Part shown: positions 22,184 to 54,887 of the stretch, in pieces
How positions within the stretch are numbered: the stretch's first letter is position 1
Layout: each line of letters begins with the position of its first letter
NCBI RefSeq assembly: GCF_014845095.1
Contig: NZ_NKUG01000054.1
Location: forward strand, 1 to 64,000
Direction: 5' to 3'
Length of the DNA: 64,000 bases
DNA from: Methylobacterium bullatum
GTDB lineage: Bacteria > Pseudomonadota > Alphaproteobacteria > Rhizobiales > Beijerinckiaceae
Program-made: the position numbers and the translations under genes
The notes under the pieces: model-generated
Databases searched by the model: none
What the model saw: the letters and a program-made list of their open reading frames with translations, nothing else
What the model was told of the DNA's origin: nothing

Positions 22184-23224
22184 TCAGTATGCGGGCACCA
22201 GCCGATCCTCGGGCAGGGGGGCGACCATGTGGAACCGCAGCCCCTCGGCCTCGTAGGCGATGACGACTTCGGCATTGCATTGCTGCGCGAGCACGCGCTG
22301 CAGCAGCGTCGAGCCGAATCCCTTGCGCTCCGGCGGCTTCACGGGGGGACCACCCGTTTCCGTCCAGCTCAGGTCGAGCACACGCCCTGCCTCTCGCCGA
22401 TCGACGCTCCAACGCACCACGATCCGCCCGGATGGCAGCGACAGCGCACCGTGCTTGGTGGCATTCGTGGTCAACTCGTGGATCGCCATGCCGGTGGGGA
22501 CGGCGAGGTCCGCGGCCAGTTCGATCGCCGGTCCGTCGAGGATGATCCGGCTGGTCGTCGCATCGTTGTAATGACCGAGTTCGTTCTGCAGCAGCTCGCG
22601 CAGCGGGGCCGTCTGCCAGTAATCCTCGGTGAGCAGGTTGTGCGTCTTGCCCAGCGAGACGATCCGGTCCGAGAACGAATGATAGAACGTGTTCACATCC
22701 TTGGTGGAGCGCGCCGTCGCTCCGAGCAGTCCCTGGACGGTGGCGAGCGTGTTCTTGACGCGGTGGTGAAGCTCGCGGATCAGCAGGGCCTGCCGCTCGT
22801 GCGTCCGCTGGCGTTCCTCAAGATAGGCTTGCACTTCGCGCTGCCGCCGCCGGGCGCGGAGGGCGGAGCGCACCGCATTGGCCAACACCGCCGGGTGGAA
22901 GGGACGTTCCAGCACCGTCACGTTGCCCAGGAGATCGGTGAGCCGCACATCCGGCGAGCCGCCGCGAGAGCTGAGCAGCACGAAGGGAAAATCCGACCAG
23001 GGCGGCTGCCGTTCGACCCAGTGGGCGATGGCGTTGCGGTCCCAGCGGAGTAGCGCTTCCTCGGTCATCACCGCGCAGGCGGCGCCATCGAGGCCGGCCA
23101 CCAGGGCGTCGAGGGTCGAGATCGACTCAGAGGCGATACCGACTTCCGCCAGGATCGCCGTGGCCACTGACGCATCACGTCCCAGGGGCGCGAGGATCAG
23201 GACGACCGGTTCAGGATGCGGCAT
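22184..23224 (-). CDS. HWE-family histidine kinase with degenerate receiver domain
   Basis: 346 aa. Residues 5-125 look like a response-regulator receiver (ending in VLERPFHPAVLANAV), but the usual phosphorylated Asp is not evident. A short coiled coil leads to the HWE kinase: H box IRELHHRVKNTLATVQGLL (His153 or His154), N box AIHELTTNATKHGALS and a G-box region WTETGGPPV...GFGSTLL. It is cytoplasmic and has no membrane segment. The ATG at 23224 lies inside the end of the KaiC-like gene (14-base overlap), so the two are probably translationally coupled. Upstream in-frame starts up to 23299 exist. Confidence 0.88.
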   Translation of the reverse strand: MPHPEPVVLILAPLGRDASVATAILAEVGIASESISTLDALVAGLDGAACAVMTEEALLRWDRNAIAHWVERQPPWSDFPFVLLSSRGGSPDVRLTDLLGNVTVLERPFHPAVLANAVRSALRARRRQREVQAYLEERQRTHERQALLIRELHHRVKNTLATVQGLLGATARSTKDVNTFYHSFSDRIVSLGKTHNLLTEDYWQTAPLRELLQNELGHYNDATTSRIILDGPAIELAADLAVPTGMAIHELTTNATKHGALSLPSGRIVVRWSVDRREAGRVLDLSWTETGGPPVKPPERKGFGSTLLQRVLAQQCNAEVVIAYEAEGLRFHMVAPLPEDRLVPAY

Positions 23225-24779
23225 CGCGTCCGGGCTCGTCCAGGGACTCTCCATCGGCCCCGACCCGTTCGACGAGGAGATTGTCGCCGTTGCCGTCATA
23301 GGTGGGCACGCCCGTCAGGACGCCGCGGAATTTCCGCAGGGGTTCGCCGACGCGCAATCCGTTGGCGTCGATCTTGAACTCGCGGATCGTGTCCTCGTGC
23401 GGACCGGTCCGCTTCTTGAGAACGGACAAGGCCCGGCGAACCCGGCCGGCGGCCTCGAAGAACCGCAGCATCACGACGGTGTCGCTGACATAGGTCAGGT
23501 CCACCGGCGATTCCATCTTCCCCACCATGCCGTGCTGGGCGAGGATCAGGATCGTCACCACGCCCTGCTGGTTCAGGTAGGTGACGAGCTCGTGCATCTG
23601 CATGACGAGGAAGGGCTGGCCCGCCATGGCGGTCATGTAGCCGGTCAGGCTGTCGATGATGACGATCCTGGCCGCATCGTGCTCCACGGCATCGCGGATA
23701 CGTCCCGCGAAATCGCCGGGCGAGACGTCGGCAGGGTCGATCTGCTCGATCTGCAGCGATCCGGCCTCGATGAAATCCGCCAGGGGCATGCCCACGCTCC
23801 GGGCACGTCGCAACAGGATGCCGCGCGTCTCGTCGAAGCTGATGATCAGGCCGCGTTCGCCGCGCCGGAGGGCGGCCACCAGGTAGCTCATGGCGAGCGT
23901 GGATTTGCCGGCCCCCGACGGACCGACGATGAGGCTCGTCGTCCCCCGGTCGAGGCCGCCGCCCAGAACCCGATCGAGCTCGGCGACGCCGCTTTCCACC
24001 GAGCCCGCCTCGAAGCTGCTGGGATGGTCGCTCGCGATCAGGCGCGGATGCACCAGGATGCCGCCCTTGCGGATTGCGAAGTCGTGGTAGCCGCCCTGGT
24101 ACTCCGTGCCCCGCATCTTGATGACGTGGACGCGCCGCCGCGGGGCACCATAGGCCGGCGTCAGCTGTTCGAGCCGGATCACCGCGTGGCTGATGGAATG
24201 CAGGTTGAGGTCGTCATGCTCGGCGCTGAGATCGTCGAGCATCAGCGCGGTGATGTCGTTGAGGAGGAAGTAGCTCTTCAGTGCGAGCACCTGGCGCCGG
24301 TAGCGCAGCGACCCTTGTGACAGCAACCTGATCTCCGACAGGCTGTCGAACACGACACGGCTCGGCTTCACCCGCTCCATCTCGCTCAGGGCCATGCGCA
24401 CGGTTTCACCGAGCTCGAGATCGGACGAATGGACGAGGCTCTGCTGCAGCTTCGAATCCAAGCTGAGTTCCGGCGGAACGAGTTCGTAGATCTCGATCCC
24501 CTCCAGCGACCAGCCATGCCGCTCGGAGACGGACATCAGCTCGCGGCGGCTCTCCGACAGGGTGATATAGAGGCATGTCTCGCCCCGGGCGGCGCCGTCG
24601 AGAAGAAACTGGAGGCCGAGGGTCGTCTTGCCGCCACCGGGCCGTCCCTCGATGAGATGGGCACGCTGGGCCGCGTATCCTCCCGCCAGGATCACATCGA
24701 GCCCCGGAACTCCCGTGGGAATCGGTTGGGCATCGGGGGCGGGACTGGCTGACATCGTCGTGTCCGGTGGGTACGGCAT
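23211..24779 (-). CDS. KaiC-family two-domain RecA-like ATPase
   Basis: 522 aa with two tandem KaiC domains. Walker A motifs lie at about 45-53 (GRPGGGKTT) and 286-294 (GPSGAGKST), and Walker B-like strands at RVVFDSLSEI and RIVIIDSLTG. In the C-terminal domain the residues matching the Synechococcus phosphosites Ser431/Thr432 appear to be Thr429/Tyr430, before SDTVVML. The paired glutamates before each arginine-rich helix are Ser-Glu and Asp-Glu instead of Glu-Glu. No kaiA or kaiB is nearby, so this is a KaiC-type signalling ATPase, not a proven clock. ATG 24755 is an alternative start. Confidence 0.88.
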   Translation of the reverse strand: MPYPPDTTMSASPAPDAQPIPTGVPGLDVILAGGYAAQRAHLIEGRPGGGKTTLGLQFLLDGAARGETCLYITLSESRRELMSVSERHGWSLEGIEIYELVPPELSLDSKLQQSLVHSSDLELGETVRMALSEMERVKPSRVVFDSLSEIRLLSQGSLRYRRQVLALKSYFLLNDITALMLDDLSAEHDDLNLHSISHAVIRLEQLTPAYGAPRRRVHVIKMRGTEYQGGYHDFAIRKGGILVHPRLIASDHPSSFEAGSVESGVAELDRVLGGGLDRGTTSLIVGPSGAGKSTLAMSYLVAALRRGERGLIISFDETRGILLRRARSVGMPLADFIEAGSLQIEQIDPADVSPGDFAGRIRDAVEHDAARIVIIDSLTGYMTAMAGQPFLVMQMHELVTYLNQQGVVTILILAQHGMVGKMESPVDLTYVSDTVVMLRFFEAAGRVRRALSVLKKRTGPHEDTIREFKIDANGLRVGEPLRKFRGVLTGVPTYDGNGDNLLVERVGADGESLDEPGRDAAS

Positions 24780-24983: not shown

Positions 24984-26072
24984 ATGCGCGAACCGAACGC
25001 GATCGATTTCTGGCGCGGCCTCGCCCTCGTGACGATCTACGTCAACCACATCCCGGGCAACACGTTCGAGCGCTACACCTACTCGCAATACGGCATTTCA
25101 GATGCGGCGGAGCTGTTCGTCTTCCTCGCCGGATGGTCGATCGGGATCGCCACGCGCGGGCGCGACGGACGACCGGAACCGCGCCTGAAAAGCGTCCTGA
25201 GACTGCTGTCACGCACGATCGAAGTCTATCGCGCCCAGATCACGACGATGGCCATCGCATTGGCCATGATTGCCGGGACGGCGTTGCTTCTCGACAATCC
25301 GCTTCTTCTTGAGTGGCACAACGCCGGCGGCTTCTTCGCCGATCCTATACAGACCACCGTCGGTTTCGTGCTGCTCACACATCAACTCGGCTTCTTCAAC
25401 ATCCTGCCGCTCTACGTGGTGCTTCTCGGCATCGCCCCCGTCTTCATCCTGGTGGCCCGGGTGAGCCGCGTCGCGGCGCTCGGACTGTCCTTCTCCCTCT
25501 ATGCCGCAAGCCTCGTCTTCGAATGGAACCTGCCATCCTGGCCGGGGGAGGGGGATTGGTTCTTCGATCCGCTGTGCTGGCAATTGCTGCTCGTGCTCGG
25601 ATTCGTCGGGCAGGATCTGAACCGCGAATCCGACACGCTCCGGCGCTGGTCAAAGCGACTGATGCCCGTGGGCGTCGTCATCGTCGTGCTCGGCATCGTG
25701 CTATCGGTGTTCGATCTCAGGCCCGACCCGTTGCTCGTTCCCGATCCACGGCTCGTCTTCTCCTTCGACAAGACCTACCTGTCGCCCGCCCGGCTGATCC
25801 ACTTCCTCGGAGTGCTGCTGGCCTTCCAGGGGGTCTACGCGCTCATCGTCCCGCATGTCGGCGCGGTCGGTCGATATTTGACGGGACTCGGTCGTAATTC
25901 ACTGGCAGTCTTCTCCATCGGCTCGCTCCTGAGCCTAGCCGCACAACTCGTGCGGTTCTGGACGGGGGGCGGCATCCTGGTTGATGTCGGCGTCATGGGA
26001 TTCGGCTTGTTCGCTCTGGGCTTCACTGCATGGTTCGTCGAATGGCGCTCGCGCAAACCTCGGCACTCCTGA
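24984..26072 (+). CDS. OpgC-domain integral membrane protein (glucan acyltransferase-like)
   Basis: 362 aa with about ten membrane helices. The N-terminus REPNAIDFWRGLALVTIYVNHIPGN and the ELFVFLAGWSIG segment are typical of the OpgC branch of the acyltransferase-3 superfamily, whose members add succinyl groups to periplasmic glucans. The His in VNHIPGN corresponds to the conserved acyltransferase histidine. I use ATG 24984; the open frame extends to 24831 without family similarity. It overlaps the SGNH hydrolase gene by 43 bases, and the two together resemble the acyltransferase-plus-SGNH pairs that modify surface sugars. Confidence 0.85.
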   Translation: MREPNAIDFWRGLALVTIYVNHIPGNTFERYTYSQYGISDAAELFVFLAGWSIGIATRGRDGRPEPRLKSVLRLLSRTIEVYRAQITTMAIALAMIAGTALLLDNPLLLEWHNAGGFFADPIQTTVGFVLLTHQLGFFNILPLYVVLLGIAPVFILVARVSRVAALGLSFSLYAASLVFEWNLPSWPGEGDWFFDPLCWQLLLVLGFVGQDLNRESDTLRRWSKRLMPVGVVIVVLGIVLSVFDLRPDPLLVPDPRLVFSFDKTYLSPARLIHFLGVLLAFQGVYALIVPHVGAVGRYLTGLGRNSLAVFSIGSLLSLAAQLVRFWTGGGILVDVGVMGFGLFALGFTAWFVEWRSRKPRHS

Positions 26073-26989
26073 TTTCCCTCGGCCTCGCCTTACTGGGAAT
26101 GATCGTCGGATCATCGCAGACCAGGGCGGAGGGCGGTGCGACGATCGTCTCACCACCGACCGCAGCGGCGCCCGCTCCGGGCGGCGAGGCGTCGGAGGCC
26201 GTCGATGTGAGCCTGTCGCCCGAATGCCGGGTTCCCGGCTCCAAGCTCTACACCCTCGCCCGGTTGAACTCGGTCAAAGCGGCGCTCAAGGAGAAGCGTC
26301 CGGTCCGCGTTCTGGCCATCGGTTCGTCCTCGGCCGGTGCCGGGGCCTCGGCGACCTATCCGGTCAAGCTGGAGACGGCACTGGAACGCTCGCTTCCCAA
26401 TGTGGATGTGGAAGTCGAGAGCCGGGGCATGCAGGGTGAGATAGCCTCCGGCGCGGCGGAGCGTCTGCGCAGTATGGTGGCAGAGGTGGAGCCCGATCTC
26501 GTGGTCTGGCAAGTCGGCACCCACGATGCACTCGCCCGCGTCGATCTCGATGCCTTCGCGAGCGCTCTCGACGAAACGGTTCAGTGGATTAAGTCGCACG
26601 ATATCGACGTGGTGCTGGTCAATCCCGTCTACACGGCGTCGCTGGCCCAGGACGAATATTACAGCAGCATCGTCCGCAAGGTGCAGGAAGTGGCCCTGCG
26701 CGAAGGCGTTCCGCTGGTACAGCGCTACGAGGCGATGCGCTACCTGTCCGGCAGTAGCGACAAGGGCGAAGCGCACATGCTGGGGCGCCAGTTCCGCCTC
26801 AACGACCTCGGCCTGCGCTGCATGGCCGAACACGTGACGCGGGCCATCACTCTCTCCCTGCTACAGCCCGACCCTGCGGCGACGGGGACGGCCGGCGCGC
26901 CGGCCCTGATCGTCGCGCCGCCGAAGGATGCTTCGGTCAAGCCGTCGCCCCCACGGAGCGGCGGTGCATCGCTGGAGGACAAGCCCTGA
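26030..26989 (+). CDS. Secreted SGNH/GDSL hydrolase
   Basis: 319 aa. An N-terminal signal sequence (about residues 1-33) targets the periplasm. The SGNH blocks are VLAIGSSSAGAGA (catalytic Ser), SRGMQGEIASG (Gly), VWQVGTHDAL (here Thr-His in place of the usual Asn) and a C-terminal RLNDLGLRCMAEH (Asp and His). The family hydrolyses or moves acyl groups on sugars. The C-terminal 40 residues are Pro-rich. It begins inside the opgC-like gene, which suggests coupled expression; ATG 26042 is a second start. Confidence 0.82.
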   Translation: MVRRMALAQTSALLISLGLALLGMIVGSSQTRAEGGATIVSPPTAAAPAPGGEASEAVDVSLSPECRVPGSKLYTLARLNSVKAALKEKRPVRVLAIGSSSAGAGASATYPVKLETALERSLPNVDVEVESRGMQGEIASGAAERLRSMVAEVEPDLVVWQVGTHDALARVDLDAFASALDETVQWIKSHDIDVVLVNPVYTASLAQDEYYSSIVRKVQEVALREGVPLVQRYEAMRYLSGSSDKGEAHMLGRQFRLNDLGLRCMAEHVTRAITLSLLQPDPAATGTAGAPALIVAPPKDASVKPSPPRSGGASLEDKP

Positions 26990-27167
26990 TGCGCACGGTG
27001 ACATGCGCACTCGGTTTCTTTTAGCCCGGCCGCAACGGGTGTCGCTCTGAACACCGACGCCGGAACGATGCGAAAAAAAGCCCCGGTATTGCGTGACCTC
27101 GTCCGAAGACAGGCGTCCTGTTTCCGGAACGAGGCCAGGGCCTGACTTGAGATCTCGAAGGGGCGAC

Positions 27168-28532
27168 GTGAGCTTAGCAACTGATGGGACGGAGGGTCGC
27201 ACCTTCGGAGCGGTGATCGTCCGCTTCAAGACGTTCCGCGCAGGTGCCGCGGGAGCGGCACTCGACGTCTTCACCATCCGTATCGCTGCCGCCGTCTTCG
27301 CCTACGGGGCGCAAGTGCTGATGGCGCGCCTGATGGGGCGGACGGAATACGGGATATTCGCCTCGATCTGGGTCTGGATCGCCATCCTCGGGCATTCCTC
27401 GACACTGGGTTTCGCCCAGGGCGCCTGCCGTTTCCTGCCCGCCGACCAAGCACGGGCCGACCTCGTCCATGTCCGGGGGTTCCTCATCGGGGGCGCATGG
27501 GTGAGTGCCGCGTGCGCCTGCACCGTCGCATGTCTCGGCCTCGCACTGGTCTGGATGCAGGGTACCCTCCTCGGAGGACCGTATGCTGGACCACTGCTCG
27601 TCGCCGCGCTGGTCCTGCCGCTCTTCACCCTGCAAGACTATCTCGAGGGCGTCGCCCGCAGCCAGAACTGGGCGGTGCTCGCCATCGCGCCACCCTATCT
27701 CCTCCGCCAGTGCCTGATCATGGCCGCCATGGCGGGAGCCGTCGCCGCGGGAGCGCCGGCGCAGGCTTGGGTTGCCGTCGCGTGCACCTTGGTCGCCACC
27801 GGGATCGCCCTGGCGATCCAAGCGTGGCTCCTGATCCTGCGCCTTCGCGCCGTTCTGCCCTCGGAGCCACCGCGATACCGTTGGCGGATCTGGCTCCGGG
27901 CATGCCTGCCAATCGCGGCGGGTGATCTTGCCCATTCCACCTTCACCATGATCGATGTGGTCATCCTGAGTATGATGATGCCGCCGACGGCGGTGGCCCT
28001 CTATTTCGTCGCGACCCGGATCCAGCAATTCGTCCCCTTCGTGCATTACGCCGCATCCGCGGCCACCGCTCAGCGTTTCGCCGCCATCCATGCGTCCCGG
28101 GATGCTCCGGGCCTGAAACGCTTCGTCCGCATCCAGGCCCGGCTCACATTCGCCGCCACGGTGACGGTCGGTCTCGTCATCGTGGCGGCGGGACCGTTCC
28201 TGCTCGCGATGTTCGGGCCGGAATTCGGCGCGAGCTTCCCGCTCCTCGCCGTGCTGGTTTTGGGCAATGTCGGTGCAAGCCTGTTCGGGCCGGGGGAGGA
28301 CCTGCTGACCATGATCGACGGCGAACGTCTGTGCGCCGCCATCACACTGGCAACGCTGGCCGTGGCAGCCTTTCTGTGTGTGGTCCTCGTCCCGTCGATG
28401 GGCGCCATGGGGGCCGCCATCGCCATGGCACTGGCCACCATCCTTCGCGGAGCCGGCATGGCGATGGCGGCTTTCCTCGTACACGGCATCGTGACGCCGG
28501 TTCTGCGGTTCCCAAGCCGCGCGGGTTCATGA
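27168..28532 (+). CDS. Polysaccharide flippase (Wzx/MATE-like)
   Basis: 454 aa with 12 or so membrane helices. The segment FAYGAQVLMARLMGRTEYGIFASIWVWI in helix 1-2 is typical of oligosaccharide flippases of the MOP superfamily, which move lipid-linked glycans across the inner membrane. I chose the GTG at 27168 because AAGGGG lies six bases upstream; a GTG at 27093 would add 25 residues. Its stop overlaps the next ATG (ATGA). No glycosyltransferase or polymerase is in the window, so its substrate must be made elsewhere. Confidence 0.83.
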   Translation: MSLATDGTEGRTFGAVIVRFKTFRAGAAGAALDVFTIRIAAAVFAYGAQVLMARLMGRTEYGIFASIWVWIAILGHSSTLGFAQGACRFLPADQARADLVHVRGFLIGGAWVSAACACTVACLGLALVWMQGTLLGGPYAGPLLVAALVLPLFTLQDYLEGVARSQNWAVLAIAPPYLLRQCLIMAAMAGAVAAGAPAQAWVAVACTLVATGIALAIQAWLLILRLRAVLPSEPPRYRWRIWLRACLPIAAGDLAHSTFTMIDVVILSMMMPPTAVALYFVATRIQQFVPFVHYAASAATAQRFAAIHASRDAPGLKRFVRIQARLTFAATVTVGLVIVAAGPFLLAMFGPEFGASFPLLAVLVLGNVGASLFGPGEDLLTMIDGERLCAAITLATLAVAAFLCVVLVPSMGAMGAAIAMALATILRGAGMAMAAFLVHGIVTPVLRFPSRAGS

Positions 28533-29680
28533 AGACCGAGCATCGAGGGACGAACGGCCGACGCTCCGTCTCGATCGTCACATATTCGGAATTGGCTGCC
28601 GATCCCGGTGCCTGGGACGCGCTGATGGCCCGGGCGCTCACCACGCATCCGCATTACAGCCGCCACGTCATCGCCGCCCACCACGCTGCGGGACTCGCCG
28701 ATACGGATCTCGCCTTCGTTGCCGTGCGGGGTCCGAGCGGCCTCGATGCGCTACTACCGTTCGCATGCAAGCGCGATGTCTGCGGGCTCGGAATGAAGGT
28801 GGCACGCCCCTTCCTCTCACCCTTCATCACGCAGACGAGCCCGCTCGTCGCCGACGACCCGGACCTGGCGAAAATTCTCGATCTTCTGGTGGCGGGTCTA
28901 CAATCCGCCTCCGGCGGCCATCTCTGGCGCTGGCCGCTGCTTCCCACCTCGACGAGGCTCGGTGGCGAACTGCTCGCGGCGATGGATCGGGCGGGTTGGC
29001 AGCACGGCATCGCTCACAGTTTCGAACGACCGATCGTAGAGCGCCGCACCTCATATGACGCCTTCCTCGCAGGTCATCCGAACCGGTCGCGCCTGAAGGA
29101 TCTGAACCGTCGCGATCGGCGTCTATCGAAGCGCGGTACGCTCATCCTCGATGTCGCCACCAATGGCGCAAACCTGCGCGATGCCGTCACCAGCTTCCTC
29201 AGTCTCGAACGGACTGGATGGAAGGGCAGAGCCGGAACGGCGCTGACTTGTCAGCTACAGCACAAGGCTTTCGCGCGAGCCCTCTTCGCCGACGGGAGCG
29301 GCCCGATCGGCCTACGCGCCGATATCCTTCGGCTCGACGGTCGCCCCCTCTCGATCAGCCTCGCCCTTCTGACAGGCGGCACGGCCACGCTTCTGAAGAC
29401 GACCTATGACGAGACCGAGCGCTCCAACGCTCCGGGGCTCCTGCTCGAGGCACGGATCATCGAGACGCTGCACGAGACGGGGTTCGCCCAGCGGCTCGAT
29501 TCGGCGACATTGGCCGGTTCCGTCCTAGAAGATCTCTTTCCGGACCGGGAGACGATCTGCGAGGTCGTCGCCGCCCCGCGCCGGGCGTTCCGCTTGCTTC
29601 CCGTAGATCGACGGATTCGCCTTGTCATGATCGAACGCGATTGCAAGGCGCTGATCAAGCGGGTCTTGGGCAGGCGCTGA
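28529..29680 (+). CDS. GNAT acetyltransferase of the CelD/BcsL type
   Basis: 383 aa. The C-terminal half has the GNAT-like block found in CelD/BcsL proteins: a [17 protein letters not shown] segment, [17 protein letters not shown] and a closing [19 protein letters not shown] region that forms the acyl-CoA site. Such proteins are found in polysaccharide gene clusters and are thought to acylate sugars or help cellulose and exopolysaccharide synthesis. No signal peptide, so it would act in the cytoplasm before export. It is translationally coupled to the flippase gene. Confidence 0.82.
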
Positions 29681-31932: not shown

Positions 31933-32175
31933 ATGACCACGTGTTCCGATGCCAACGCCACCAGCTTCGACCCCTATGGTGAGCCGTTGGGAGAAGACCG
32001 CATCACACACATGGTGCAGGCTGATCGTCGGGCGCGCAATGCCGCTATCGCGATCTTCTGGACGCTCGCGCTGACTTTGACTGCGGGGCGGGTTTATTTG
32101 AACGATCAGCCACTTGGCCATGCCTTGATACTTGCCAAAGCGCAGATCGGGGCGTTCGTCACGGCCGTACGTTGA
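31933..32175 (+). CDS. Small membrane protein, 80 aa, hypothetical
   Basis: Not recognised. A soluble N-terminal stretch (about 1-35, with a FDPYGEPLGEDRITHMVQADRRAR segment) precedes one membrane helix (about 36-56, AAIAIFWTLALTLTAG). The frame opens further upstream, but 31933 is the likely start since earlier codons overlap the permease gene. It lies just before the transposase remnant and may itself be altered at its 3' end. Ribosome binding site weak. Confidence 0.4.
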   Translation: MTTCSDANATSFDPYGEPLGEDRITHMVQADRRARNAAIAIFWTLALTLTAGRVYLNDQPLGHALILAKAQIGAFVTAVR

Positions 32176-32238
32176 CGTGATGTCGATGGCTGTCGACCAA
32201 TACGTGTCGGCGAGATAACGCGGCGATCGCTTTCTTGA

Positions 32239-32748
32239 TCGGGGCATGAGATACGGCCACCGTATTTGGCCGGTATGGACGCAGGGCAACCGGACCGAGC
32301 ACAGCGCACGTTTACCGACCCGGACAGCCGGATCCTGCCAGGCGCGATGGCCTCGTGCAGGGATACAACGGGCAGATTGCCGTCGATGACGCGAATGAGA
32401 TCATCGTAGCGCATCGCCCTGTTACGACCTCCGCCGACTCCCGCGCCCTGGTGCCGATCATCGACGACGTCCGCAGTCATTTCGGGCTTCAGTCGTTCGA
32501 GGTCTCCGGCGATGCAGGCTTTACCAACCGAGGTAAACTTGGCTGCTCTGAGGGAGCGGCCGGCCTTCTCACGCTGACGAAAGACGCCCCCGATGCGTGC
32601 GATGGCCGCGTGGATGAAGCGGGCTGGCCGCCGGACCCGCTACCGCCTGAGGAAGCATATCGTCGAGCCGGTGTTTGTGTAGATCAATCAGGCCGGAGGC
32701 TTCCCGAAGTTCTTGCTCCTGGTTCTCAATCAGGTTCGGCACTTATAA
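32239..32748 (+). pseudogene. Decayed IS1182-type transposase fragment
   Basis: Three reading frames carry consecutive parts of one transposase. Frame one (from 32239) reads to RTFTDPDSRI; the frame then shifts near 32335 to DGLVQGYNGQIAVDDANEIIVAH and FEVSGDAGF; a later shift near 32620 leads to YRLRKHIVEPVFV, an in-frame TAG (32680-32682), then INQAGGFPKFLLLVLNQV. These match the C-terminal half of IS1182-like transposases (FTDPDSR, QGYNAQ, DAGY, VEPVFGQIK). The N-terminal half and clear inverted repeats are missing, so the element is dead. Confidence 0.8.
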
Positions 32749-32762
32749 TACATTGCAAATAG

Positions 32763-52466: not shown

Positions 52467-54887
52467 ATGCGCTTCATCCTTCGTTTCTTCGGCTTCCTGT
52501 TCAGCATCGGGGCGATGTTGTTCGTGCTGCTGTCGGCAGCCGGCGCGTATTTCTATTACACCTACAGTCAGGATCTGCCCGATCACGCCGCCCTCGCCAA
52601 TTATGAGCCGCCGGTGATGAGCCGCGTCCACGCAGCGGATGGCAGCCTGCTCGCAGAATATGCCAACGAGCGCCGGCTCTACCTGCCGATCCAGGCGATG
52701 CCGAAGATCGTCGTGGCCGCCTTCCTCTCGGCCGAGGACAAGAACTTCTACAAGCATGGCGGCATCGACCCCGAGGGGGTCGTGCGGGCGATCTTGACCA
52801 ACGCCAAGAGTGGCAAGAAGCAGGGCGCCTCGACCATCACCCAGCAGGTGGCGAAAAACTTCTTGCTCACCAACGAGCAGACCTTCGACCGCAAGATCAA
52901 AGAGGCATTGATCGCCCTGCGGATCGAGTCGGCCTACTCCAAGGACAAGATCCTCGAGCTCTACCTCAACGAAATCTTCCTCGGCACCATCGTGCCCGGC
53001 CGCAACCTGCACGGGGTCGCCGCCGCCGCACTCGATTATTTCGGCAAGTCCGTCCACGAGCTGACGATCAACGAGGCTGCCTATCTGGCCGCGCTGCCGA
53101 AAGGCCCCAACAACTATCACCCCTATCGTCAGACCCAGAAGGCCCTCGACCGACGCAACGAGATCATCGGCCTTATGGCCGTGAACGGCTACATCACGAA
53201 GGAAGAAGGAGAAGCCGCGCGTAAGATGCCGCTCGGCGTCAACCCGCGCGTCGCCTTCGCCAACGCCGCCAATGCCAACTACTTCACGGAAGAGGTTCGC
53301 CGCGAGATCACGGAACGCTACGGCGAAAAGAAGCTCTATGAGGGCGGGCTCTCCGTGCGCGCCACCCTAGATCCGAAGATGCAGGCCTGGGCGCGCAAGG
53401 CGCTCGTGGATGGCCTGATCCGTTACGATCAATCTCACGGATGGCGGGGAGCTCAGGCGAAGGTCGATCTCGTCGGCCGCGATTGGGGTCTCGCCGTTGC
53501 CGAAGTGCCGGGCCTCGGTGACGTCCAACCTTGGCGTCTCGCCGTCGTCCTGAGCACGACGGGAGGCGTTGCTCAGATCGGCTTGCAGCCCCGCCGCGAG
53601 GCATCCGGTCAAGTCTCGAAGGAGCGTGAGACCGGCACTATCGCCGCCGACGGCACCCGCTGGACCGGACGCTCGCCATCGGCAGCGCTCAATGCCGGCG
53701 ATGTCATCTATGTCGAGGCCATCGACGGGGGGCGCGGACAGTACCGGCTGCGCCAGCGTCCGGAGGTCTCCGGCGCCATCGTCGCCATGGACCCCTATAC
53801 CGGACGCGTCCACGCCATGGTCGGGGGATTCTCCTATGACGAGAGCCAGTTCAACCGTGCGACGCAGGCCCAGCGTCAGCCGGGCTCGTCGTTCAAGCCG
53901 ATCGTCTACTCGGCCGCCCTCGACAACGGTTACACGCCGTCTTCGATCGTACAGGACTCGCCGATCACCATTGAGGCCGGTCCCGGCCAGGAAGCGTGGT
54001 CTCCGTCGAACTACGACGGCAAGGCGGGCGGCCCGCATACGCTCCGCTACGGGATCGAGCATTCGAAGAACCTGATGACCGTGCGGCTGGCCAAGGATGT
54101 CGGCATGCCGCTCATCGCCGAATACGCCCGCCGCTTCGGTGTCTACGACGATATGCTCCCCGTCCTGCCGATGTCGCTCGGGGCGGGCGAAACGACCGTC
54201 ATGCGCATGGTCACCGCCTATTCCATGCTGGCCAATGGCGGCCGCCGTATTCGCCCGACCCTCATCGACCGCATCCAGGATCGTGTCGGCGAAACCATCT
54301 ACAAGCACGACAACCGAAAGTGTCTCGGCTGCGACGCTGAAAAGTGGTCCGGCCAGGACGAGCCGAAGCTGGTGGATGATTCGGAGCAGGTCCTCGATCC
54401 ACTCACTGCCTACCAGATGGTCTCGATCATGGAGGGCGTCGTCCAGCGCGGCACCGCGACATTGCTGAAGCAGATCGGCAAGCCGCTCGCCGGCAAGACC
54501 GGCACGACGAACGATGCCAAGGACGCGTGGTTCGTCGGCTTCTCGCCGGACCTCGCGGTCGGGGTCTATATCGGCTTCGACAAGCCGCGCTCGCTCGGCG
54601 ACCGCGCAACCGGTGGCGGTCTCGCGGCGCCTGTGGCCCTCGACTTCCTGAAACAGGCCCTTAAGGACAAGCCGCCGACACCGTTCCGTGTGCCGCCCGG
54701 CATCAAGCTAATCCGCGTCAACGTCGCCTCCGGCATGCGCGCCGGCTCCGGGGAAGGCTCCGGTACGATTCTCGAGGCGTTCAAGCCGGGCACCGCCCCG
54801 CCCGACGCCTACGTCGCGGCGCCGGCCGCTCCCGCCGCCGTACCGGCGGACGCCGACCGTGCGGCACAGGCTGGTGGATTGTACTGA
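52467..54887 (+). CDS. mrcA: Penicillin-binding protein 1A
   Basis: 806 aa, bifunctional. A short cytoplasmic start and one membrane helix (about 8-30) precede the glycosyltransferase domain with AAFLSAEDKNFYKHGG (catalytic Glu) and GASTITQQVAKNFLL, EIFLGTIVPGRNLHGV. An OB-like linker follows (about 300-430). The transpeptidase has QPGSSFKPIVYSAALDNG (Ser-X-X-Lys), EHSKNLMT (Ser-X-Asn) and AGKTGTTNDAKDAWFVG (KTG). It builds and cross-links peptidoglycan in the periplasm. I use ATG 52467; the longer frame is not conserved. The Ala/Pro end is typical. Confidence 0.95.
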   Translation: MRFILRFFGFLFSIGAMLFVLLSAAGAYFYYTYSQDLPDHAALANYEPPVMSRVHAADGSLLAEYANERRLYLPIQAMPKIVVAAFLSAEDKNFYKHGGIDPEGVVRAILTNAKSGKKQGASTITQQVAKNFLLTNEQTFDRKIKEALIALRIESAYSKDKILELYLNEIFLGTIVPGRNLHGVAAAALDYFGKSVHELTINEAAYLAALPKGPNNYHPYRQTQKALDRRNEIIGLMAVNGYITKEEGEAARKMPLGVNPRVAFANAANANYFTEEVRREITERYGEKKLYEGGLSVRATLDPKMQAWARKALVDGLIRYDQSHGWRGAQAKVDLVGRDWGLAVAEVPGLGDVQPWRLAVVLSTTGGVAQIGLQPRREASGQVSKERETGTIAADGTRWTGRSPSAALNAGDVIYVEAIDGGRGQYRLRQRPEVSGAIVAMDPYTGRVHAMVGGFSYDESQFNRATQAQRQPGSSFKPIVYSAALDNGYTPSSIVQDSPITIEAGPGQEAWSPSNYDGKAGGPHTLRYGIEHSKNLMTVRLAKDVGMPLIAEYARRFGVYDDMLPVLPMSLGAGETTVMRMVTAYSMLANGGRRIRPTLIDRIQDRVGETIYKHDNRKCLGCDAEKWSGQDEPKLVDDSEQVLDPLTAYQMVSIMEGVVQRGTATLLKQIGKPLAGKTGTTNDAKDAWFVGFSPDLAVGVYIGFDKPRSLGDRATGGGLAAPVALDFLKQALKDKPPTPFRVPPGIKLIRVNVASGMRAGSGEGSGTILEAFKPGTAPPDAYVAAPAAPAAVPADADRAAQAGGLY

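Follow-up and report, generated by a model that had tools for sequence, protein, structure and literature searches.

The stretch of DNA analyzed here (the window: positions 1 to 64,000 of contig NZ_NKUG01000054.1, Methylobacterium bullatum) contains an opgC gene followed by a gene for an SGNH-fold protein that has lost catalytic residues. The opgC gene (24984..26072, plus strand) encodes an OpgC-family membrane acyltransferase (OpgC_C, PF10129, E = 2.1e-78, 264.2 bits against a cut-off of 21.4), with the DxxRx10H acyl-CoA motif present as DFWRGLALVTIYVNH in the first helix, near the N-terminus; the motif is kept in 219 of 219 OpgC loci. The SGNH-fold gene (26030..26989, plus strand) matches NonGDSL (PF25182, E = 2.1e-47, 161.7 bits against a cut-off of 80) and PF13472 (5.6e-12), and its product is probably secreted, judging from its N-terminus. 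When the first ATG is used, the two genes overlap by 43 bases (26030-26072), as originally predicted, and from the ATG at 26042 by 31 bases. Within its final 150 bases, opgC contains an ATG of the SGNH frame in all 58 genus loci and in 31 of the 37 other loci examined, counts that use predicted start codons and have no shuffled control. Because chance alone will often place an in-frame ATG close to the 3' end of opgC, we do not press the overlap as proof of coupling. Unlike the overlap, the adjacency of the two genes is clearly beyond chance: in all 58 genus relatives, from each of which the region was retrieved, opgC and the SGNH gene lie side by side on one strand, and the pair is never broken.

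We scored the catalytic residues in an alignment of the 59 genus sequences (the window and its 58 relatives) with intact relatives. Block V of the window protein reads RxxR where a catalytic SGNH enzyme has DxxH. The catalytic Asp position is occupied by Arg253 (26786..26788, plus strand), and Asp is found there in none of the 59 sequences (41 Arg, 6 Ala, 5 Ser, 5 Thr, 1 Gln and 1 Gly). At the catalytic His position stands Arg256 (26795..26797, plus strand): all 59 genus sequences have Arg there, against His in each of the 10 intact relatives compared. The block I nucleophile is retained in the window protein as Ser100 (26327..26329, plus strand) and in 43 of the 59 sequences, with Asn (8), Thr (7) or Pro (1) in the other 16; the block II Gly136 is kept in all 59. 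The original prediction had singled out block III, where GTHD was said to put Thr-His in place of the usual Asn. It was right in direction, as the oxyanion Asn is indeed replaced, by His165 (26522..26524, plus strand; His in 39 sequences, Asn in 20), but the Thr is merely the variable x of GxND and the His alone replaces the Asn. Moreover, more extensive changes, those of blocks I and V, went unnoticed, with Asp and His lost across the genus and Ser no longer fixed. Replacement of the catalytic His by Phe, a candidate that was tried, proved wrong, since alignment with close intact relatives shows that Arg has taken the place of the His and that the Phe is retained.

The Ser and Asp columns, invariant in the 10 intact relatives, reach percentiles 71 and 82, respectively, for variability in the genus. 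Column 256 alone among the catalytic columns is fixed on both sides, with His throughout the intact set and Arg throughout the genus; the only other such fixed-difference column, 62, is a trimming effect. In a named set of 76 sequences (L203-L278), whose species overlap with those of the 58 relatives, position 256 is Arg in 74 and His in two, L256 (Rhizobiales bacterium YIM 77505) and L266 (a Microvirga metagenome-assembled genome), and these two have an intact triad. Among the matches listed, the closest named relative of the SGNH protein is that of Methylobacterium sp. 10 (96% identical), and 71 of the named loci kept (the best 80 of 345 confirmed) carry the name Methylobacterium or Methylorubrum. 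By its residues, the SGNH partner of OpgC is thus a predicted pseudoenzyme in Methylobacterium.

Despite the loss of the triad, the predicted fold is still that of an SGNH protein. The AlphaFold2 model of the window protein (mean predicted local distance difference test score, pLDDT, 74.2) has as its best structural match the acetyl-mannan esterase 6hfz (Z 17.2, 201 residues, 3.1 A). A further match is PatB (Z 13.7). For the intact relative L256, the mean pLDDT of the model is 83.1. A melted active-site loop in the dead protein was considered and rejected: the loop is of low confidence in the dead model and in the intact L256 alike, and therefore its confidence is uninformative on dead versus intact. 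Selection was gauged by the ratio of nonsynonymous to synonymous substitution rates (dN/dS), calculated by the Nei-Gojobori method with our own script in four close and four wider comparisons. In the close pairs the ratio is 0.052-0.072 for OpgC and 0.043-0.101 for the SGNH gene (n = 4), and in the wider ones 0.105-0.119 and 0.158-0.205, respectively (n = 4). The SGNH gene is therefore under purifying selection, its constraint being roughly equal to that of OpgC in the close comparisons and a little weaker in the wider set.

Two further genes follow on the same strand. A flippase-like membrane gene (27093..28532, plus strand; PF01943, E = 3.5e-9, 36.9 bits against a cut-off of 28.2), with a predicted role in polysaccharide transport, has an uncertain start (GTG at 27093, 27168 or 27213) and ends at 28532. 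It overlaps by 4 bases (28529-28532) a GNAT gene (28529..29680, plus strand; PF13480, E = 3.7e-17), for which "CelD-type" is a label from the original prediction. All four open reading frames were found as that prediction described them, each with a Pfam match, including the overlap between the last two. The order of the four genes is not unique to this strain. The flippase-GNAT pair comes after the opgC-SGNH pair in 46 of the 58 genus relatives, namely in 45 and, if a contig break is allowed, also in G057, where a separate sequence (L327) carries the end of the SGNH gene and then the flippase-GNAT pair. Outside the genus, this four-gene order recurs in L256 and L266. Since the order is seen in other genomes, that part of the original prediction which would have fallen had it been strain-unique still stands. 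In 11 of the 58 relatives, however, the flippase and GNAT genes occupy another site, still side by side (L316-L326), and no opgC was found among the predicted genes around them, neighbors on which no family scan was made; G047 has a weak GNAT match only. In L062, counted among the 45, 4.75 kb separate the two pairs. A stretch of about 4.75 kb lies between opgC-SGNH and the flippase gene of Methylorubrum suomiense (L230:7241-11016), and two open reading frames scanned there have no Pfam match. Thus each pair holds together whereas the join between the two does not, with opgC-SGNH intact in 58 of 58 and flippase-GNAT found elsewhere as a pair in 11. Evolutionary rates separate the pairs as well, flippase-GNAT being under much weaker constraint: the flippase has a dN/dS of 0.168-0.245 and GNAT one of 0.258-0.268 in close pairs (n = 4), and the values in wider ones are 0.209-0.269 and 0.313-0.341 (n = 3). 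We therefore reject the single four-gene module as it was stated, since the second pair occurs apart from the first.

Recurrence of the degenerate partner outside Methylobacterium was examined in 80 fetched OpgC loci, mostly the higher-scoring of a longer list, itself capped, and some sharing a genome. Leaving out one genus member (L142) and adding L091, L256, L266 and L279-L282 gives 86 loci outside the genus; a copy was called degenerate if Ser, Asp and His were not all present. Of these loci, 12 have a degenerate and then an intact SGNH gene in tandem, 8 a single degenerate copy, 17 a single intact copy, and 49 no linked SGNH gene on the same strand. The tandem arrangement of OpgC, degenerate SGNH and intact SGNH on one strand is seen in L128-L132, L134, L191, L193, L197, L200, L091 and L279. 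Rerunning the 49 loci with a broader profile found no additional same-strand SGNH neighbor, with L184 ending 771 bases past OpgC; two of the 49 have an SGNH gene on the opposite strand and one has an SGNH gene 4 kb upstream. As some degenerate copies hold one or two triad residues, not each of them is certainly inactive; L179, for example, retains Ser and His with Glu at the Asp position. At the His position the other degenerate lineages have E, D, Q, K, A, N, P, T or L, with Arg in L148. In a maximum-likelihood phylogeny with 72 SGNH rows (39 degenerate and 33 intact, of which four intact rows are not directly OpgC-linked), built with the trait columns removed, at least six changes between the intact and degenerate states are needed, a count that depends on the placement of several long-branched degenerate rows. 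Gain and loss are indistinguishable on the tree itself, and we read the changes as losses because it is implausible that a full triad would be regained. L256 and L266 form the starred sister group to a clade of Methylobacterium plus one L279 copy; the loss in the degenerate L279 copy beside Methylobacterium may be shared or separate.

Other SGNH proteins in the same genomes have fared differently. In the M. bullatum genome, another contig (C286) encodes a NonGDSL paralogue, unlinked to opgC, whose triad is intact, and the triad motifs are present in 30 of 30 unlinked genus paralogues read (30 genomes), with 16 additional genus matches unread. Therefore, as far as these loci have been read, decay in Methylobacterium is tied to the OpgC-linked copy. 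The eight genomes with single degenerate loci were likewise searched with PF25182. Nothing other than the degenerate OpgC-linked copy exceeds the NonGDSL cut-off in four of them (G339, G304, G287 and G311), and the remaining four encode an additional NonGDSL protein with intact motifs (L360, L366, L367 and L369).

No sugar-polymerising gene was found within the four-gene cluster by a Pfam scan of 29 of the 53 predicted window proteins, in keeping with the original prediction. Among those 29, the sole "glycosyl transferase" by name is PF00591 (7846-8859), amid tryptophan-pathway genes, and the sole polymerase is a peptidoglycan penicillin-binding protein (52467-54887). Elsewhere in the genome, contig C305 has opgG (MdoG) together with a divergent opgH-like glycosyltransferase, and contig C101 has a second MdoG. 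The idea of a glycan made elsewhere thus fits, given the lack of a linked polymerase and the presence of opgG and an opgH-like gene at another site; the modification and transport module built on that idea is supported to this extent, but not as one four-gene unit. A second OpgC paralogue on contig C272 (L290:5967-7112) is 29% identical, with no SGNH or opgGH neighbor among the predicted genes. An opgGH operon containing the window opgC was considered and is not what this genome has, as neither OpgC adjoins opgG or opgH. Across 297 genomes of the order, 117 have both OpgC and MdoG, 28 OpgC only, 45 MdoG only and 107 neither, and MdoG is present in 29 of the 31 non-genus genomes of this sample that have an OpgC-SGNH locus. 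This co-occurrence, uncorrected for ancestry, points to a periplasmic glucan as the likeliest acceptor but goes no further than that.

As for the surroundings, a promoter and terminator scan gave nothing over shuffled expectation. Divergent from opgC on the minus strand, an open reading frame for a KaiC-like double ATPase (PF06745, 23211-24776) overlaps that of an HWE histidine kinase (22184-23299) by 89 bases; the two are possibly a KaiC-kinase signaling pair. Downstream, short open reading frames that by eye resemble transposase remnants (32106-32762) lie ahead of a large gene that, likewise by eye, is ribonucleotide-reductase-like. The top NCBIfam match of the flippase-linked GNAT is BspF, a Brucella effector model, and the gene here is an ordinary-looking chromosomal GNAT distantly related to it. 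A BspF-type effector identity was rejected, with NF047385 at 99.7 bits against a cut-off of 775 being a distant match only.

PatA/PatB and AlgI with AlgJ/AlgX are two-component systems of an MBOAT and an SGNH protein. The window pair resembles them in that a membrane acyl exporter is accompanied by a distinct SGNH-fold protein in the periplasm, one whose model here matches PatB, and differs in that its membrane partner is OpgC rather than an MBOAT and its SGNH protein lacks the triad. Like the fused AT3-SGNH proteins (OafA/OafB, OatA), it combines a membrane acyltransferase with an extracytoplasmic SGNH fold. However, the fused type is one chain with an 11th helix, whereas the window has two separate open reading frames, and its membrane part matches OpgC_C instead of AT3 (PF01757). 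In addition, the triad reported as required in OafA (PMC7448272) is lost here. OpgC belongs to the TmAT superfamily (PMC12423673), and a review presents OpgC and MdoC as AT3 proteins that stand alone (PMC9558356). The window protein is akin to OpgC/MdoC, the succinyltransferase of osmoregulated periplasmic glucans, in its OpgC_C match, its DxxRx10H motif and the presence of MdoG in 117 of the 145 OpgC genomes of the order sample, with succinylation a candidate activity in the present case; in contrast to the stand-alone proteins of PMC9558356, it has a coupled SGNH gene, and it does not lie beside opgG/opgH. A noncatalytic helper has a counterpart in AlgF, an interaction mediator in alginate acetylation (PMC10641220). 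As a nonenzymatic periplasmic component of a glycan acylation system, AlgF has the role that we propose for the window protein, although AlgF has beta-sandwich domains (PMC10641220) and the helper proposed here would be a former SGNH enzyme. A search of the literature by title and start of abstract, with subscription papers and preprints outside its scope, found nothing on an opgC-coupled SGNH gene or on a dead SGNH partner of OpgC.

Loss of the triad in a protein that is yet strongly conserved suggests that the partner has been kept as a structural helper, not as an enzyme. The reading we favor, to which we give about an even chance, is that OpgC works with a noncatalytic, SGNH-fold pseudoenzyme subunit and, alone or with another SGNH protein, acylates a glycan, most likely a periplasmic glucan. 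OpgC would take an acyl group from cytoplasmic acyl-CoA and pass it through its membrane domain via DxxRx10H. On the periplasmic side, the pseudo-SGNH protein, secreted and presumably in physical association with OpgC, would serve as a noncatalytic subunit, either holding or orienting the acceptor glycan or stabilizing OpgC. The final transfer would be made by OpgC itself or, in some species, by a second, intact SGNH protein, and the acceptor would be an osmoregulated periplasmic glucan built by the products of opgG and the opgH-like gene, which lie at another site; flippase and GNAT would form a unit of their own. This proposal draws on the gene order, the triad loss, purifying selection, the predicted SGNH fold, the repeated change of state and the co-occurrence of OpgC with opgG-type genes, and the identity of both acyl group and acceptor is part of what it predicts. 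A more specific version can be offered tentatively, as a possibility we would not bet on. In this version, OpgC acyltransferases of the order would often work with a separate SGNH protein, and at least six lineages would have shed its catalysis with its presence staying essential; the protein would then be an obligatory clamp or gate for the acceptor, with Arg256 possibly binding a succinyl carboxylate or an anionic glycan.

Other explanations were weighed against the helper proposal. If the SGNH gene were simply decaying after loss of its role, one would expect the lost catalytic residues and perhaps the excess of its dN/dS over that of OpgC in the wider comparisons. However, the low dN/dS in close pairs (0.04-0.10), together with the adjacency and a frame open over the matched region in all 58 relatives (two copies reach contig ends), leaves simple decay with next to no probability. 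It is also quite improbable that the protein is still an enzyme of altered chemistry, in which Arg256 and other residues would replace the triad. The fixation of Arg256 and of Gly136 throughout the genus would fit such an enzyme, as would the Pfam name Non-GDSL, though intact members belong to that family too; yet the Ser and Asp positions drift within the genus, the His position is filled by varied residues in other degenerate lineages, and in OafA the mutants S412A, D587A and H590A are reported to give 0.36%, 10.13% and 0.87% of the wild-type signal (PMC7448272). A glycan modification and export module of all four genes, with the flippase and GNAT acting on the same glycan as OpgC, appears improbable as well: the shared order in 46 of 58 relatives and two genomes beyond the genus speaks for it, whereas the relocated pairs without an opgC nearby and the much weaker constraint on flippase-GNAT speak against it.

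A more serious contender, if still an unlikely one, is a heteromer in which the degenerate SGNH protein is the noncatalytic half and an intact SGNH protein does the final transfer, the intact half being encoded adjacent in some families and at an unlinked site in Methylobacterium. Several observations lend it weight, and the first of these count against the helper proposal: a homologue of the C286 paralogue is found at E <= 1e-30 in 37 of 37 genus genomes searched, with triad motifs wherever read, and this, together with the 12 tandem loci, means that an intact SGNH protein may act in trans. Indeed, the AT3-only protein WecH is reported to be able to work with the soluble SGNH protein PatB in trans (PMC7448272), and half of the eight degenerate-single genomes have another intact NonGDSL protein. 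In contrast, the other half (G339, G304, G287 and G311) have no second NonGDSL protein over the cut-off, and in M. bullatum the unlinked paralogue is on a different contig from either OpgC. The degenerate-single genomes thus slightly favor the noncatalytic subunit over the heteromer, although the same four genomes hold sub-cut-off SGNH matches with GDSL, GxND and DxxH motifs (L371-L374), which may be another kind of SGNH protein and which again tell against the helper proposal. So do the many OpgC proteins that manage without a linked SGNH gene (49 of 86 non-genus loci), the position of the window opgC away from opgG and opgH, the C272 paralogue, which could be the glucan enzyme instead, the 2 of 31 OpgC-SGNH genomes that lack MdoG, and the fact that the OpgC/MdoG counts are uncorrected for shared ancestry.

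The esterase or lipase annotation of the OpgC-linked SGNH gene is probably wrong in Methylobacterium. How AT3-type acyltransferases lacking an SGNH domain bring acylation to completion, and whether they require an SGNH partner, are questions raised in the literature (PMC9558356, PMC7448272), and the obligatory-subunit version of the proposal, if true, would show how an AT3/TmAT-type enzyme finishes its reaction without SGNH catalysis. OpgC loci constitute a natural experiment in this respect, in which a similar membrane enzyme is found with an intact SGNH partner, a degenerate one, both or none, so that the set separates a structural from a catalytic role of the partner, with Methylobacterium and L256/L266 as matched pairs. 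The degenerate partner of OpgC is conserved and has evolved repeatedly, and its function would be that of a noncatalytic subunit.

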